Source of the DNA: Hyperoplus lanceolatus
Lineage: Eukaryota; Chordata; Actinopteri; Uranoscopiformes; Ammodytidae
NCBI GenBank assembly: GCA_026929865.2
Contig: CM049398.1
Coordinates: 12,109,501 to 12,173,500, forward strand
Direction of reading: 5' to 3'
DNA: 64,000 nucleotides
Positions 27,634-50,676 of this stretch are shown one piece after another. Position 1 is the stretch's first letter, and every line of letters starts with the position of its first letter. The position numbers were made by a program, and so were the translations under genes. Below the pieces are notes generated by a model. It did not search any database, was not told the origin of the DNA, and was given only the letters and a program-made list of their open reading frames with translations.

Positions 27634-29040
27634 CTATGGGCCCATAAATTTAGCTTGGAATGGTGACCCCACAATTGGTAGCAAAGCCAACACTTGGTCA
27701 CCCTCACTAAACTGTTGTCTCTCAGACCGTCGATCATACACATGCTCCATTCTCCCCTGTGATTTTTCCAAGTTTTGTTTTGCCAGATGACCAGCCATAT
27801 AAAGCCGGTGTCTGAACCCGTTTACATACTCTCTCAAATTGGACGGAGGTTCCTCTGTGTACCACTCATCTCGACGCACTGCCAAAGGACCACGTACTCT
27901 GTGACTAAATCATTTGGACTAAAACCAGTACTTTCCTGACACACCTCCCTTGCTGCTAAAAGCAACCATGGCAGACCTTCCTCCCAGTCCCCCTGCATCT
28001 CTGTACAATATGCTTGCAATAAGGACTTCAGAGTTTGGTGAAAGCGTTCTAAAGCTCCTTGGCTTTGTGCATGATACGCAGACGATTGGCTATGTTTGAT
28101 ATTAAGTTGCTTTAGAACTTGGGAAAACCAATTTGAAGAGAAATTTGACCCTTGATCGCTCTGGATAATCTTTGGTATGCCGAATATTGAGATGAACTGA
28201 GTTAAAGCCTTAACTACAGATTTAGCTGTAATTGTACGCAACGGGTAGGCGGCAGGATAGCGTGTCACCTGACACATGACAGTTAACAAATACTCTGAAC
28301 CAAATTTGGACCTTGGTAAAGGTCCAACACAGTCAATTATTATGTGTTCAAATGGGCTATCTACTGCAGGGATTGGAGAGAGTGGGGCAGGCTTTACAGT
28401 CTGATTTGGTTTACCTGTAAGTTGACAAGTATGACAGCTCTTGATGTAAACTGCCACATCACGTTTAAGACGAGGCCAAAAAAAATACCGCAAAATGTGA
28501 CAGTACGTTTTCTTAACCCCCAGATGCCCAGTCTGGTCATGCGAACACTGCATCACTTTATTTCGATACTTCATTGGTACTACAACTTGGTAAACTGGAT
28601 CACCAACACAATCCAAACCCTGTGGGACCCACTTACGGACCAATACCTCATTCTGCAGGAAGTACCCACTAGCTGCACTCTGAGCATCAATGCTAGGCCG
28701 CACCTGATCAAACAGTTCTCTCAACGAGGCATCCGCTCGTTGCTCAGTGCTAAGTTCCTGTTGGGAGATAGACAGAGAATTAGGCACATGCAAATTCCTC
28801 TCACAATCCAATTCTTCATGGTCAAATGCAAAATCTTGCGTTTCTGAATCTTTTGCTGCCATTGCCTGTGTCACAGCACAAGCGGTAAAGACCTCAGGGC
28901 ATTCAATTTTACCATCAGTTGGGTTATCCAGCATCGGTGTATATGCATCAGGTGGGGCACCATTAATCCAGGCATGATTGCCAGCTAAATCATTCCCAAG
29001 AATAACATGGACTCCAATGATTGGCAAAGCAGGACGAACC
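27634..29040 (-). pseudogene. Integrase region of the gypsy element
   Basis: After the protease tail comes an H2C2 zinc finger (HDQTGHLGVKK, then CHTC), then the catalytic core with the D-D-E residues seen in HIIIDCVGPLP, IQSDQGSNF and SQGALERFHQ. A C-terminal GPY/F-like segment follows (VLALLPIVGSPFQAKFMGP). A deletion-type frameshift near 27908 separates core and C-terminal frames, and a TAG at about 27637 ends the GPY segment. Integrase would insert the cDNA copy in the nucleus; this copy cannot encode a whole one. Confidence 0.88.
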
Positions 29041-30574
29041 CCCAAGGTGGACATCACCATTTACAAGGCCATAAGCTAAACTAACTTTGTGCAAAGGAAC
29101 ACTCAGAGTTTTTAAACCCATTCCCTTTACTAGCAGACAGCCACCTGTGTCACTGTCCTGAGAAAAATGCAGAACAGAAGATAATATGAACGAGTCCTTT
29201 GCTCCTGTATCTCGTAGAATTTTTACCGACACTTTATTTTGCATACCAGACACAGATACAAATCCATCCGAGACAAATGCTCCAAAGCCAGAAAAATTCC
29301 CATCTACAGTTTTACCTTCATCTAAAACTGTCTTAGAAATAACTGGAAGGTTCCCAACTGGAATACTTAGGGCAGCTGGTTGAGTAAATGTATTGCCTCC
29401 TCTGTTAACCCTGCTCTTCAGATAAGTGCAATCCGCTTTCCAGTGTCCTCTCTCATGGCAGTAATTACAAACTTCATCAAAGCCACCTGAACGTGAACTA
29501 CGGTTCGGCTTTGCAGACTCTGACCATGACATTTTAGCAGAGCAACCAACATTTTTAGTATGCACATCTGGAACACGGCTCCTCCCCAACCTTCCTTTTC
29601 GAGCCAGAATATATTTGTCTGCCAGAATTGCTGCTTCATGAACAGTTTTCACTCCACGCTCATCAATATGAGTGGCGACTTCAGGTGGAATACACTCTAT
29701 GAACTGTTCCAATACAATAAGATCACAGAGATCTTTCAAATTAATTACTCCCAAAGCTGAACACCATCTATTGAAATGTTTGGACAACTCTCTTGCAAAT
29801 TCCACATTTGTCTGTTCGTCAGCCTTTTCCCACGACCTGAAGCGTTGCCTATAGGCATCTGGCACTAACTCGTATGCTCTAAGAACTGCTTCTTTTACAG
29901 TGGAATAGGCCTGACAATCCACTGCACTAAGAGCGGAATAAGCTTCCTGGGCTTCTCCAGTGAACACCGATTGTAACATAACAACCCGGTCAATTTCAGG
30001 CCAACCTCTCATATCGGCTACCCGTTCAAAAAGTGTAAAAAAGGTGTCTGGATCTTTCTCGTCAAACTTTGGTATCAGACGCAAATTACGAACCACATCA
30101 AACCCTTTTACCTGTGATGTAGCAGGCTCTTCAGGCCATTCTGAACCCTCAGCATTACCCACAATCCTACCTGCTTCAATAAGCTCTAATCGGTACCTTT
30201 GCAACCCCAATTTTTCCTTTTCCAAAAACTGTTGCAACTCCAATTTTTCCTTTTCCAAAGACTGTTTTCCCCTTTCAAAAGACTGTCTCATTTGCTCTTT
30301 ATCCATATCTGCATTTATCTGCAAAAGCAACAGCTCCCTTTGCTGCTCAAATGTTAGACCTACAGTAGGAGAAACCACAGCATTACTTTGCACTGACTGG
30401 CAAAACACCACTTTCAATTAAAGCAGCCCTCAGTGTCCCTTTAATTTCCTTCTTTAACTTTTTATCCCCAATGTCAACCTCATAATGCTCCACGAGTTTC
30501 AAAAGTTGGTCTTTAGTGTAACCATTCAACATTGCCTCAGAGGGAGATTGAACAAAACTACCGACAGAAGCCAT
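29041..30574 (-). pseudogene. Gag and protease region of the gypsy element
   Basis: Gag begins with ATG at about 30574 (MASVGSFVQSPSEAMLNGYT). A frameshift near 30385-30400 separates this start from the main frame. The main frame has a Glu/Lys coiled segment and a capsid-like region (LRLIPKFDEKDPDTFF, LIVLEQFIECIPPEV), then the CX2CX4HX4C zinc knuckle CNYCHERGHWKADC at about 29450-29490. The aspartic protease motif is LRDTGAKDSFIL. The LVLEQF-type capsid segment resembles the vertebrate SCAN domain, which is thought to derive from Gmr1-like capsid. A frameshift in a C run near 29040 breaks the join to integrase. Confidence 0.88.
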
Positions 30575-43070: not shown

Positions 43071-44543
43071 CAGCGACGCAAGGGCGTAGGAACCGGGGTG
43101 GACGTGTCCCCTCCAATATTGGAGACAGGCGCATTTGTCCCCCCCCAAAAATGATACCGCGAGGAGAAAAATATTTGATTTTGAAAATGCTTTTATTTTG
43201 AAAGCGCAACACAGCTTCTTGTCACCGGCCTCCTAAATGTGTTTGTTTTGCCCCGAACAAAGCTTTTAAGGTAGCGCGCAGGGTTGGGAGTTTCAGGCGG
43301 GAGTGCCCATTGAAGTGCTTTAACGCAGCGCTGCCTAGAAGGCTGCGTTGAGGGCACACAACAGACTGTTCGGGAAGTCTTTCCTTTGCAAAGGCAGTTA
43401 GAACGCTACTCGGTTACTTTTTTCACACGTTAACCTGTTCTTTCTGTTAGTAAATGCTCTGCGCAAAAGCTCATTCACTTCCTACTTCATCCAAACCGAC
43501 TTAAACAGCTCTCTGTGTATCGTATCGCTAATTTAAGCCTGTAACAAACCTAGTGCTGAGTCCGCCTCTCTCATGCTGCTGCTGCTGGCACATCAGAGGT
43601 TCACTGCTTCTGAACGTTACCCAGCATACGCTCTATAAAAGCCTTCTGTTCTATGGGCTCGGGCTGCCTACTGTAAATATGGGTTTTCAGGTCGATGCAA
43701 GGTGCGATTTTTTAAAAAAGAAAAGAAAAAAGGATGACGTTTTTATTCATGAAACATTTGGAAACTAAACTTGCAAGAATTAAATCTCCCACACAGTAAC
43801 ATTCAAAGTATGATTCAGTGTTTCCCCCACGTTCACACAGCAGCGGCGCGCCACCGCTGCTATATTTTCTCCGCCGCTATTAAAATCCTCCTCATTATTT
43901 ATGAAGGTATTATTGTAGCATAAGTCTTTAGCACATGTAACGGCAGATTTCGAATGCGTAAACTGAAGTGACAAATGTGTAACAGTAGATTTGAAGTCGT
44001 AAATATTTGTTTTGCATGTGTACTCCAAAGTCACAAATGTGTAACAGTAAATTTGAAGTCGTAAATATTTTTTCTACCATTGTGGACACAAAATAGGGGC
44101 TACGAGTTCACAAATCGTTGTTACGGGTGCACAAATCCTATCCTGTGCATCGCAACTTCAAAGAGTCATGCGCTTGACACTTTTGCTACAATCATTGCAG
44201 CACAGTTGGTGCAAAACACATTTGCACACCCGTGTTTCATAATGTGAGAACATGCCCAAAATTTGTGAATTCGTAAACCCAAATGTGAACTAACGCATCA
44301 GAAGTTGCACATCTGTGAAAAATGTCCTCTCAAATAAAATGATATCGAGCACAGCATTTTAATGAGCGAGCACAAATCGATGATACAACTGCTCAAATCT
44401 GTTCCTACAAGTCTCAGCTGAGGGTTTTCTCTGCTCGAATCTGCTCCTGCAAGTCTCGGCTGTGGGTTTTTTTGCAGGTAGATTTGCACCACGCCCAGGT
44501 GGTAAATGTGGTGCAAAAGTGTTTCGTATGCGTAGAACAGATT

Positions 44544-45721
44544 AGGCTCGTTCGACCTGTCGCCGTCTTGCTAAGACCTGCGCAATTATGACGCTCGTCT
44601 TGCTGAGCGCACTGCATTATGGTTAGACTTTTTGTCCCACTTGCACCCGTGGCTGGCTGCGGCTCGGCTGCTTGAGACTTTGAAGTCCCGCGGTATCAAG
44701 ACGGACACAGACACTGGAGCAAGTCGCTGCAGTTGCTCCCCACGGGCTGCGGGAGCGAAATGTCTGATGGGAAACGTCTTGCTGACAGGCGGAGCTGAGC
44801 GCTAATTGGGAGTTTAAACCTCGTGCCTTTGATGCGTTTCCCCAATTGGTTAGGCAAAAGTCTGACATCACCGCTCAAAATTAAATTACGATCCATTCTT
44901 TTTGATTTTAATTTATGTTTAATCATTAGGCCGCCACAATATGCATTTAAGCAGAAATGTACTTAATCAGAGTTAAACCTCTGAACCCTTGACATAGAAA
45001 TAATTTGGATGTGTAACTCTCCTGTATAGATATATTTAAAAGTGAACACAAACTTGAGTCACATAAGATCTTGGTGAAGTGATTTTTATACCATTAAGAT
45101 TAAATCATAGGCTTATTTCAAGTGATCTAAATGGTCTGGGAATTGTATTTTACATGTAGTGTCGCAAAGCCAGACCAAAACTACAACAAGTAGTTTGTTT
45201 GTTACACATCATAATACAGTTCATCATATCCATCTCTACAATAATAATAAGGGATCTTTTCTTAGACCTTCTTTATTTAGGCCGATCATATTCGTTATGT
45301 GAAGGGAGAAATACTAAACCTCCTTTATTTGGATTTGTAAATTATTCTTGTAAATTATTCTTTATCACTTAAAAGTAGGTGTTCTAGTAAAGTAACAAGA
45401 AAGATAAAGATGTGTGGGGAATGGGGATATTAGCTTATATCTCGTTTCTTGTTTTGAAAATGCCCCTCGCTTTTAAAGTGTTTACTCGTCTTTGTGTTGT
45501 GTTCTGCTTCTAATCGGTTGTAGCATGTGTGACTCTCCTGCGAATATGTTTCTAATAGGCCTTCAAAATAAAACTAGAAAACGAACTGCATCCGCAACAA
45601 GGACGCTACTTCCGACTCGGAGCTGTCCGGCTTCAGTCAGGCATTTTCGTCACTCCCCCGACTGCACTCGGCTACTCTCGTCTACTTTCCAGACGAGCTG
45701 AAAGTTAGGTCGAACGAGCCT
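44544..45721 (+). mobile_element. AGGCTC element, copy 1
   Basis: Terminal inverted repeats are AGGCTCGTTCGACCT, flanked by ATT on both sides (44541-44543 and 45722-45724). The other foldback arm shows the same locus without the insertion (GTTCTACAG/AGTTGTATCC context near 50025-50040), which proves the borders and the 3-bp duplication. Interior frames are short (for example 45492-45701 plus, 44696-44926 minus), and neither resembles a transposase. It is 1178 bp and nearly identical to copy 2 (52854-54048, inverted), with a roughly 17-bp indel. Confidence 0.88.
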
Positions 45722-46284
45722 ATTTGTATCCGTAGAAGGTGGGCGGGACAACATTGTCGCATCATCCAATGAAAGCGCCGGTTGGGACCCGTGACGTCAG
45801 CATGTGAACAAACGGAGGAAAAGGCTTTTTCCTTCGTCCCTTTTCACCAGAAATTGTAGGAAATGACTAAATGAGCAACAACTACTATCAAACTAATGCG
45901 AAGTAGTAGGTAGTAGTGAATTGAACTCTTTTTCTGTAGTTTTACATAGCATTTTTTAAGTAATGGAGAATTATATTATATGTAGCCTACTCCAGCCTTT
46001 GAGGAAAAGTAGTCCAAGGTGTCTGTAACAGTAAATAAGCCGCGTTAGCTAGCTTTGAGGTGGTTTCCCGATCATTTTAGACAGGACAGGAGGCTTATTA
46101 TGTGACACGGTGAAGTTGAGGAGGGGATACCCATTAAACACCAGGACCTGCGGTGGTTTAATAAACAGTTGAGCTGCTTCACAATCTCTGTCCGGAGCCG
46201 CAGCAGTGTCTGGACTGACGGTCACGGACACAGACCTAGGGTTTAGCTAGAGCCTACAGGACACGGAGCCATCCCACGGAAACT

Positions 46285-48379
46285 ATGAACTGTAAGTCTG
46301 GTTTTCTTATGTTTTTAAACTTCAAAGTTGGTCGGTATAATACGTTCAATGATGAGAAGCAACGTGTGGTTATAATGTATTGCAGGCAGCATAGCTAACC
46401 ACTAGCTAACAAGTCATAATGGGTATAACAGCTAATGTTCGTTAGCATATTCTTTTAAAGGATGTACCGTTTTTTAAGGCATTTGGTCACTTCTAAGGAT
46501 GTTAATAATTAGCTGTTAACGTAAAATAAGAAGGCTGACCAATGAATCCTTCCGTTAATCAGTTAAAATCCCGGCGCTAGCCAGGGAAATATGAGTCAGC
46601 TGAATACTGGAGTCTTGTTGCTATAATAATAATCAGCGTGTCTGTATGTCTGCTTTTCTGGGACATCGGCACCTTCATACATAGCCTACTAGTTTTACAT
46701 CAGGATGTAATGTTAGCATGTGTCGACCTCATATAGAGCGTTTTCTGTCTTAATAGTGGCTATGAAGATCCAAATAAACACATGTGAGCAGTATACTATT
46801 CTGCTCAGCCCGTCTCAACATCATGTTGCTGTTTCTGAATAAAAACAGGTAGACAAGCGTCCCATTATGCAAAGGATTTTTTTTAATTGTGCAGCTCCAT
46901 CGTGTTTAAATCATATTTTATATCTGTTTTTCCAGCCTGAAAAAAAACATTTACAACTAATTTTAAAAGTCACTAATGACAAGCAGAGCCGGCCCAAGCC
47001 TTCAGGGGGCCCTAAGCGAAATATGATTAGGGGGCCCCTCTCCAATGTTAGCGCTGCTGAAACTCTAGATCTTTGTTAAATATCATTCACACACCCAGTG
47101 TTTTCTGCTAGTGCCTCCACTGTGCGGCTGTGCGAAAATATTAGACAGCCGAGATTCAGACCCTCCTAGGGGGGTCCGGGGGTATGCCCCCCCGGGAGAT
47201 TTTTTTAACCTTTTTAAAGTGAAATGCATGAATCTGGTGCACTTTGAGAGGAAAATTAAGAGGCTAAATCTGAGAAATCTTGTGTGAACAAATAATTTGC
47301 AGACACTGGGTCAGATGAATTAGAAGCTATTGAAGAAGGACACATGGATTTTCCATAAAAATATTAATATAAAATAAAATCTTATGGAGGGTCCTCTGGT
47401 TTGGGCTTGGAGCTCTTTTTCTTTTACGGGACATATTTCTCTATAATATAGTGAATGCATTTAAATGCATTGTGAGGAACGAAGCAGAAGAACTTTGTTA
47501 TCCAGCTACTGTATCTTTTTTTCCACAGACAAGGGTGACATAGGCTATAGACTATACACAGTGCATGGGCAACTGAGGGCAGCTCCATTTCCAATTGTTT
47601 TTAAATAAACTCAATACACACTGTGCATGGATGTGAACGTGACATGATCAGATAATTTCGGATTTCCTCCAAGATGAACTGATTACATTTTTAGGCTATT
47701 AATTATCTAGACCAAACATTGTATTCCTTTTTTTGTATGATAACTCACATTTGCATAGTATGATGTTAATATCAAACACACAAACTAAAAAAAAAAAAAA
47801 AATTTTTTTTTTTTTTTTTTTTTAGGGGGCCCCCCAGGCAGTCGGGGGCCCTAAGCGGCCGCTTAGTTCGCTTATGCCTCGGGCCGGCTCTGATGACAAG
47901 ATACCCCCCACGAAGAGAATGAATTGCAGGGCTGTTATAATAAACTATATTGATTAGTTTTTAGCTTTGTGTTCTTCATCAACTCGAACCCATGTATTTT
48001 ATTTATTTTATAAATCTTAACATTATCTTAACATCTGAATGGCACAATCTGCTTTTCCACAGACTCATCTTGGCTGTCCTGCACAAGTGTCTGGGATTTC
48101 CATCCTGTCAGGGAGAAGCCATTGTACAGTGAGCAGCTACAGTCAGTCCTAACTATTATCCGTCATGTGTTTACTATAACATCACTAATGGGATTAACAA
48201 TTGTTTCCGTCCCCAGTGTATGCATTGCTGAGGGAAGGACACTCCAGATAACTGAAGACTTCACTGCTCCTGCTGCCTTGAGAAGATCTCCGAAGATGGA
48301 GCAGCGTGGAACTCACCTGGCAGTCACAGCACATCAGTCTGACTCTACACTCTACACACAATTTGTTTTCAATTTTTAG
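46285..48379 (+). CDS. Possible two-exon cargo gene in the foldback element
   Basis: ATG at 46285 is followed after seven bases by a GTAAGT donor (46292). A strong acceptor (polypyrimidine then CACAG) precedes 48063. Joining 46285-46291 to 48063-48379 gives an open frame of 107 residues starting MNYSSWLSCTSVWDFHPVRE and containing a hydrophobic stretch (IIRHVFTITSLMGLTIVSV). Upstream 46180-46284 is CpG-containing and promoter-like. AATAAA follows at about 48637. No family is recognised. A further internal acceptor (CCCCAG at about 48213) would give a shorter second exon. It may be a non-coding transcript or a captured host first exon. The intron contains the hAT at 46984-47892. Confidence 0.3.
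46984..47892. mobile_element. hAT non-autonomous element (level 4)
   Basis: Ends are CAGAGCCGGCCCAAGCC and, inverted, CAGAGCCGGCCCGAGGC, flanked by a perfect 8-bp duplication ATGACAAG (46976-46983 and 47893-47900). Subterminal GGGGGCCCTAAGCG and inverse words are typical of this teleost hAT family. The interior holds a fragment related to the level-2 element (47098-47290) and an A-run/T-run palindrome at about 47787-47823. No transposase is present. Confidence 0.9.
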
Positions 48380-49390
48380 ATTGTGATTATTATAAATCTA
48401 GACAAAGTCAGATCATACTCAATTCATAATCATATTGATTGCAGTAAATGAGGTGACATACTCAGTCATGTTTATTTGTTTGACATATTAAAAAGGTAGG
48501 GGAGATTTTGATTAAATATGGTAAACAGTTGGGCTACAGACCAAGGACTAAGTTACTAGTTTTATGTTTTGTTTTATAAAGTCTTGTTCCGGCACATGCC
48601 AGAGCATTTTGGGTATTTTGTTCATTTTCTCTTAATAAAATAACGCCATACAAAACTTTACTTGGAGGTATGCAATTGTGAGTGCATTATAGTTTTAAAC
48701 TGGTTGATTTGTATTTTTCATTTTGACCGTATGTATATGTTTAGTAAATCCACAAATATTTTAAAAAGTCCAAATCTTGTGATTTGTTTGTGGGGTAAGC
48801 TTTTACTATACATTTGTACTGATTGTGCTTTGATGTGATAACTGCAAATCATAAATATAATTGATATAGGGCATTTATTAGTCTTGCTTTAGCAGCATGC
48901 AGACCTACTTATTAATGCAGCACGTGATCTGAATTAACATGTTCTAAACTGCATAAAATGTTATGGTGTGACACTTTTTGATTGTGATTAATTAAAGTAA
49001 TCACTGAAATGAGGTTATATGAAGCTTTGTACCCTGTTCTTCTGGACACGTCACATGAGGTAAGGTGTATAGCAGAACTGTCTGGGGATAAGCACACTAG
49101 TTAAACCTGATCATCTAATTATCAGTTTGTGATACAAGTAGTGATAATTTCACATGGAAAATGTGAGATAGAGGAACAATTATTCCAATTCAGTTTTAAT
49201 ATTTCCTCTATACTTTTCTATTGCCTTGTAGAGTAGGTTACTTATTCACTTCACTATTCACGTTTAAATTAATTAAGCTTACTACATTTAGAAGACTAAG
49301 TGTATGATTTATAAGCATATTTCTGGATTTAGATACATGCTGAATACTCTGCAGCAAGATATGTAGGCCTACTTTATTTACTTTGGTCCT

Positions 49391-49615
49391 CAATGCCTGC
49401 AACGTCCTCCACCCCCTGCGTGTGGTGTGTTTTAACCATAGATAGTTTTAACAGCCAGGAGCCTTGACAGCGGCTGCGGGACAATAAACTATTGTCAATA
49501 GTTAGCCTGCTATCGGTGTACGAATGTGTGTGAATGGTAACGTGTAAATGGGAACAGGTCTCCCTTGCAAAAGAGTCTTCGGACTCAATGGGATATACCT
49601 GTATAAATAAAGGTT
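49391..49615 (+). mobile_element. SINE-like repeat
   Basis: It contains GTGTACGAATGTGTGTGAATG, then a 3' segment with ACTCAATGGGATATACCTG and TATAAATAAAGGTTAAA. This 3' end is common to several teleost SINE/LINE families. The 5' head is not a clear tRNA. Confidence 0.55.
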
Positions 49616-50676
49616 AAAAAAATATATAATGGAAATTCATTCTCTATTTAATAAGACTACTTTTATTAAAATGTAAAGGTTTTAAAGAGAAAAATAGCAG
49701 GTTTAAACAGTTACACCAGTGCCAATCACACAGCAGACGTTAACTGACGTCGACGCTGGCCCTTATATCTGCTAAAGTAAACTTGTTTATGACTTTCACT
49801 ACTGGCATAAGGCTCCGCTGTAGTTCCCTCTTATTCAATTCCCTTATTATTACATTTCCTACATTTTCTGGTGAAAAGAGACGACCATGGACCAGCCATG
49901 GACATATGAGGGAGACGACGGAAACAGGCTTTCCCTCAGTCTGTTTAAATGCTGACGTCACAGGTCCCAACCGGCGCTTTCATTGGATGATACACAATGT
50001 TGTCCCGCCCACCTTCTACGGATACAACTCTGTTCTACAGGTACGAAATACTTTTGCACCAAATATAGCAGCTGGACGTGGTGCAAATCTACCTGCAAAA
50101 AACCCACTGCTGAGACTTGCAGGAGCAGATTCGAGCAGAGAAAACCCTCAGTTTAGACTTGTAGGAACAGATTCGAGCAGTTGTATCGATGGATTTGTGC
50201 TCGCTCATTAAAATGCTGTGCTCGATATAATTTTATTTGTGAGGACATTTTTCACAGATGTGCAACTTCTGATGCGTTAGTTCACATTTGGGTTTACGAA
50301 TGCACACATTTTGGGCATGTTCTCACATTATGAAACACGGGTGTGCAAATGTGTTTTGCACCAACTGTGCTGCAATGATTGTAGCAAAAGTGTCAAGCGC
50401 ATGACTCTTTGAAGTTGCGATGCACAGGATAGGATTTGTGCACCCGTAACAACGATTTGTGAACTCATAGCCCCTATTTTGTGTCCACAATGGTAGAAAA
50501 AATATTTACGACTTCAAATTTACTGTTACACATTTGTGACTTTGGAGTACACATGCAAAACAAATATTTACGACTTTAAATCTACTGTTACACATTTGTG
50601 ACTTCAGTTTACGCATTCGAAATCTGCCGTTACATGTGCTAAAGACTTATGCTACAATAATACCTTCATAATTATT

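Follow-up and report, generated by a model that had tools for sequence, protein, structure and literature searches.

We investigated an element at positions 43900-50670 of a 64,000-nucleotide stretch of the Hyperoplus lanceolatus genome (contig CM049398.1, positions 12,109,501 to 12,173,500), which was analysed as a whole and is called the window below; coordinates without a prefix are those of the window. The element, a complete transposon copy of 6,771 bp that begins TATGAAGGTATT and finishes AATACCTTCATA between two 6-bp target-site duplications (TSDs), is very probably a recent insertion from a non-autonomous DNA transposon family of the IS3EU/GingerRoot type with long terminal inverted repeats (TIRs). 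On our best reading, the family is new but of a known kind, not a new class, and is set beside IS3EU by published descriptions and not by Repbase entries. A preliminary description of this DNA had entertained a new class of element; this is not supported, given the IS3EU-type termini, the 6-bp TSD and an older relative that surrounds a transposase fragment.

Results

The family is dispersed through the genome. A search with the left arm of the window copy gave 41 matches at 99-100% identity (best 40 of 233 candidates scored), and a 25-base terminus matched at 198 positions with up to three mismatches (101+97), compared with a single match (0+1) for a reversed-pattern control. Among the 100 terminus positions listed, 96 of which are exact, pairing of the exact termini gave at least 43 facing pairs of 4,316-10,737 bp (median 4,800 bp); 23 of these 43, among the matches listed, are 4.5-4.9 kb long. 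The arms, whose genome-wide search in pairs had been proposed as a check, are thus not confined to the window. A 31-mer from the supposed exon 2 of the centre matched 102 times (49+53) as against none in the control, with 30 of its 33 exact matches falling within the 43 facing pairs, and the terminus and 31-mer counts agree on about 100 copies with one common core.

We then fetched 20 loci, chosen by similarity to the window arm, 19 of which gave 20 complete pairs, or 21 with the window. L021 was left out of the pair counts, its right arm lying outside the fetched piece; in this 10.7-kb copy there is a large insertion, part of it matching the tandem repeats at L030:1-1880, and what was seen of it is satellite-like. 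The termini TATGAAGG..CCTTCATA are present in all 21 pairs, and 20 of them have an exact 6-bp TSD, which in the window is ATTATT at 43894-43899, identical to 50671-50676; a 6-bp duplication had been noted in the preliminary description. The exception, L020, lies on C8 about 60 kb from L026 and, flanks included, matches it at 99.7% identity over 9,978 bp. The two represent one insertion inside a recent segmental duplication, so that the TSD is exact in 20 of 20 independent insertions. At L011:101-9315, one family copy is inserted into another with a perfect 6-bp duplication, GATACC, which is single at the empty site in the window copy and in L023. The existence of a mobile family, already suggested from the sequence of the window, is therefore borne out by the 198 termini, the exact TSDs and the copy-in-copy insertion. 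A segmental duplication or an assembly artefact, of which the L020/L026 pair is a real instance, is refuted as an explanation of the family by its dispersal over many contigs with unlike flanks and by 20 exact TSDs that all differ from one another, and retains practically no probability.

The termini and TSD point to a superfamily. IS3EU elements have TA..TA termini and usually a 6-bp TSD, GingerRoot, which belongs to the same lineage, has a 6-bp TSD and mostly TA..TA termini, and Repbase held 45 IS3EU families in 2022, 17 of them autonomous (PMC10045372, in part). Fungal IS3EU ends are given as TAYGG..CCRTA, with TIRs "longer than 30 bps" (PMC12730594, in part). Literature searches returned no published account of the window family. 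The suggestion that it was not yet described may hold in so far as it could be unlisted in Repbase, but its termini, its TSD and the relative on C17 described next point to IS3EU.

In order to find a transposase, we searched the whole genome with the profile of the integrase-core family PF24764, chosen beforehand, at a cut-off of 26 bits and obtained 84 hits at 56 loci. Separately, two patterns of diverged termini were searched, the first of which gave 4 places versus 3 in the control, not significant alone, and the second 4 versus 0. These places led to a foldback relative of 257 bp on C13, a miniature inverted-repeat transposable element (MITE) with the same termini and the TSD CACAAT, whose outer arms share 85-88% identity with the outermost ~118 bp of the family arm. 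A search with the C13 MITE (40 of 224 candidates scored) led in turn to C17:30515913-30525342, an older facing pair of 9,430 bp with ends TATGAAGGTA..TACCTTCATA and an exact TSD, CAAAAG. This pair encloses a PF24764 hit of 56.8 bits at C17:30520143-30520385, interrupted by one stop. Other PF24764 loci have similar exon borders (C19:29329894, C1:550697, C12:5248273 and C4:20474080). Given 56 loci, the chance expectation of such a hit is 0.00065 for the C17 interval and 0.019 over 47 intervals together. Besides C17, these comprise the 43 young pairs, a facing pair of 24 kb on C4, a pair of 5.2 kb on C1 and the C13 MITE, and C17 alone contains a hit.

The same observations bear on an alternative in which the element is a foldback from a different superfamily (Mutator-like FB, P/Galileo or Polinton) and no longer has its transposase gene. 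Long arms with 62-bp and 40-bp tandem pairs recall Mutator-like elements (MULEs) and FB, but such an origin is very improbable given the 6-bp TSD of all 20 independent insertions and the integrase-core fragment enclosed by the C17 relative, whose ends are the same. TSDs of MULE and P elements are longer than 6 bp, those of MULE/FB being 8-11 bp, and Polinton/Maverick elements have AG..CT ends and capsid and polymerase genes. Membership in the Mutator-like group (MULE/FB) was rejected on a TSD of 6 bp in place of 8-11 bp. Polinton/Maverick was rejected on the TA..TA ends and on a longest listed open reading frame (ORF) of 142 amino acids, although the TSD length, which is 6 bp in Polintons (PMC10045372, in part), fits. 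Most plant MULEs have long TIRs, and Mutator TIRs contain promoters (PMC3310237, in part).

Several points weigh against the IS3EU assignment. The C17 fragment covers PF24764 profile positions 98-178 only and carries a stop, and, as the reading of this pair covers 20 bases around each end, the domain could belong to a separate nested element. None of the 84 PF24764 hits lies inside the 43 young pairs. The preliminary description had set its proposal against an ordinary long-TIR family whose autonomous member has a known transposase; the termini, the TSD and the C17 relative bring our findings close to this case, but no intact helper with the family ends was found among the copies checked, which come from a listing of 100 of the 198 termini. 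Furthermore, PF24764 is taken as the IS3EU transposase by fit, including a weak match to PF00665 (rve), and not by comparison with Repbase proteins. We also read eight PF24764 loci of five groups (L029-L036), none of which has a DNA match to L023 (E 1e-3, simple repeats masked) or contains the 16-base family terminus with up to two mismatches. The best-scoring PF24764 family read, Family A (L029 and L031; ends TATGGCAAGCC), has no clean 6-bp TSD in the single copy read with both true ends, which makes it less certain that PF24764 is the IS3EU transposase. Family A resembles the window family in having the PF24764 domain found in the C17 fragment, ends that begin TATG and finish CATA, and apparent short derivatives; it differs in showing no DNA match.

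Two further observations were made on Family A: its L029 exon shares 95% identity with a protein of Boreogadus saida, and a 16.8-kb facing pair, C18:14324280-14341062, surrounds PF24764 hits. Family B (L030/L032), in which an identical block of 2,479 bp has no TA ends, was dropped.

Self-comparison of the window shows an inverted block of 486 nucleotides at 98% identity followed by additional blocks; in L023, which lacks two nested insertions present in the window copy, the uninterrupted arms measure 758 and 757 bp at 95.8% identity, in agreement with the ~0.8 kb estimated previously. The outer part of the left arm, with the terminus TATGAAGG, lies at 43900-44543 (plus strand; delimited by self-comparison and genome-wide terminus matches) and its inner part at 45722-45838 (plus strand), and the right arm of 757 bp, with the terminus CCTTCATA, at 49914-50670 (minus strand). 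Window self-comparison places the 62-bp and 40-bp tandem pairs inside the arms. The commonest arm 7-mer occurs 5 times, compared with a mean of 3.1 and a maximum of 6 in shuffles, which is no clear enrichment; the idea of transposase binding sites thus draws on the 62-bp and 40-bp repeats only.

Each window arm holds TGACGTCA, a cAMP-response element (CRE), at 45792-45799 and 49953-49960, and this motif is found in both arms of 16 of the 20 copies, in one arm of three and in neither arm of one. In the inner arm it adjoins GGGCGGG and CCAAT, and together the three form a plausible candidate promoter. A CRE in each arm had been reported before, and its presence stands; however, as each arm repeats the other in inverted orientation, the two CREs count as one mirrored site.

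We compared the two arms of each copy over their first 620 bp. Identity between them is 96-97% in 13 of the 20 copies, 91-92% in three (L017, L018 and L025) and 99.4-99.8% in four (L014, L016, L027 and L011a, the inner copy of L011). As 13 copies share the 96-97% level, the divergence of the arms is older than the burst. The near-identical arms of the last four copies could reflect arm conversion or a retained older state; true arm conversion would indicate that the life cycle includes a step templated by a hairpin. It is tempting to speculate that both arms of the family maintain a functional CRE promoter, that the centre gives rise to a spliced transcript, either noncoding or for a micro-protein, and that these aid the family's spread, with the arms perhaps homogenised within copies, but we give this idea little credence.

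The centre of the element had been described as exon-like cargo. It contains a donor-like ATGAACT/GTAAGT (ATGAACTGTAAGT) at 46285-46297, pointed out in the preliminary description, a first acceptor TTTTCCACAG ending at 48062, an exon-like stretch at 48063-48400 with a second donor near 48131 and a second acceptor ending near 48218, and a poly(A)-signal-like AATAAA at 48634-48639, all on the plus strand. All 20 copies retain the donor, 19 of them the first acceptor and 19 the AATAAA context, although such retention says little because the sampled copies are so young. While the splice and poly(A) motifs are thus present as described, the exon-like stretch gave no coding signal and its open frame is weak. 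If the second, better-looking donor is used, the frame spans about 35 codons by eye; if the second splice is omitted, the read-through frame comes to 107 codons in 5 of 19 copies (L014 left out) and, because of indels, to 58-62 codons in the remaining 14. Of the listed ORFs (ATG, GTG or TTG start) that overlap the element, the longest, that of 142 amino acids, lies mostly within the right arm, as does the longest stop-to-stop frame in L023 (155 amino acids). Ten frames from the centre and the nested insertions had no Pfam match above the cut-off and two below it, which bears out the reported absence of a recognisable transposase. Rfam gave zero matches. Two protein database searches with the tested centre frames found no homologue; one query was a 76-amino-acid peptide that presupposes a weak donor.

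The comparison of centres that the preliminary description had called for showed the centre of the window copy in all 20 other pairs read (with a deletion in L014). Together with the 102 matches of the exon-2 31-mer and the lack of homologues for the frames tested, this speaks against the cargo claim; the centre is the core of the family and not private cargo of the window copy. The core may have come from a host gene at an earlier stage, though we consider this unlikely. Such a cargo element would carry a host gene fragment, acquired by transduplication as in Pack-MULEs, and would supply transcripts with a functional promoter, with splice sites and with a poly(A) signal. The retained motifs agree with it, with the reservation on young copies made above, as does the CpG observed/expected ratio in L023, which is ~0.5-1.05 over the arms and the 5' third and falls in the middle to 0.15-0.42 (window average 0.51), a drop expected of long-methylated DNA. 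The low ratio may reflect old methylation of the middle or its descent from methylated DNA. IS3EU elements can also acquire extra genes, as shown in fungi (PMC12730594 and PMC10853768, in part). On the other hand, the tested frames have no Pfam family above the cut-off and no homologue, the read-through frame is short in most copies, and one centre common to all copies read excludes capture by the window copy itself.

The window copy is longer than the usual 4.6-4.9 kb of the family because of two nested insertions, neither of which is mentioned in the preliminary description. The first, of 1,178 bp at 44544-45721, splits the left arm, has the ends AGGCTCGTTCGACCT..AGGTCGAACGAGCCT with a 3-bp ATT on either side, and is not present at the same place in the 20 other pairs compared. 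The second, of 909 bp at 46984-47892, lies within the supposed intron, has the ends CAGAGCCGG..CCGGCTCTG and is flanked by an 8-bp duplication, ATGACAAG, at 46976-46983 and 47893-47900; from the length of this duplication and its termini we take it to be hAT-like. L009 and L012 align through the 909-bp element, the other copies lack it and L014 is deleted over the site. The window copy comes from a lineage that already carried the hAT-like insertion, common to L009 and L012, and the left-arm insertion came later.

The sampled copies spread very recently. Over shared bases the window copy differs by 0.02% from L009, its nearest sampled sister, by 0.04% from L012 and by 1.7% from L011a, the most distant. 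As a point against so young an age for the family, selection by arm similarity lowers such estimates, and the sampled copies represent the family's young end.

Elsewhere in the window, two long ORFs at 27834-30417 on the minus strand resemble, by eye, the gag (with a zinc knuckle) and integrase parts of a retrotransposon.

Discussion

Our data suggest how a family that lacks a recognised transposase might move. A DDE transposase of an autonomous IS3EU-type relative would bind the arms through the TATGAAGG end and the repeated subterminal sequences, and, supplied in trans, would move the element and insert it at staggered 6-bp sites. The centre would be carried passively, either as what remains of an ancestral 5' transcription unit with its intron or as noncoding filler, and the CRE, CCAAT and GC-box of the inner arms may represent a former promoter of the transposase gene.

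If the IS3EU assignment is right, a non-autonomous element of IS3EU type can have long arms of the sort that suggest a foldback class. The window copy would then mark a very recent and perhaps still ongoing burst of an element from a little-studied superfamily, and copies that differ by about one base per 5 kb make a live test of transposition practical. Apart from the recent burst and the long arms, what we describe is ordinary mobile-element biology.

Among known systems, FB/MULE foldbacks likewise have long inverted arms with internal repeats, whereas the window element differs from them in its TSD of 6 bp and in its termini. The gene-bearing fungal elements, TET/JBP IS3EU and Styx, share the proposed superfamily; they carry a transposase and accessory genes, in contrast to the window element, in which no gene was recognised (PMC12730594 and PMC10853768, in part). 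From IS3EU and GingerRoot at large, the window family differs in that no transposase was recognised within the window element and in its arms of 758 bp, the arm length of fish elements not being stated in the parts of PMC10045372 and PMC12730594 used. With these two groups it shares the TA..TA termini, seen in 21 of 21 pairs, the 6-bp TSD, exact in 20 of 21 pairs and in the C13 and C17 relatives as well, and through the C17 relative it may also share a tie to an integrase-core DDE transposase.

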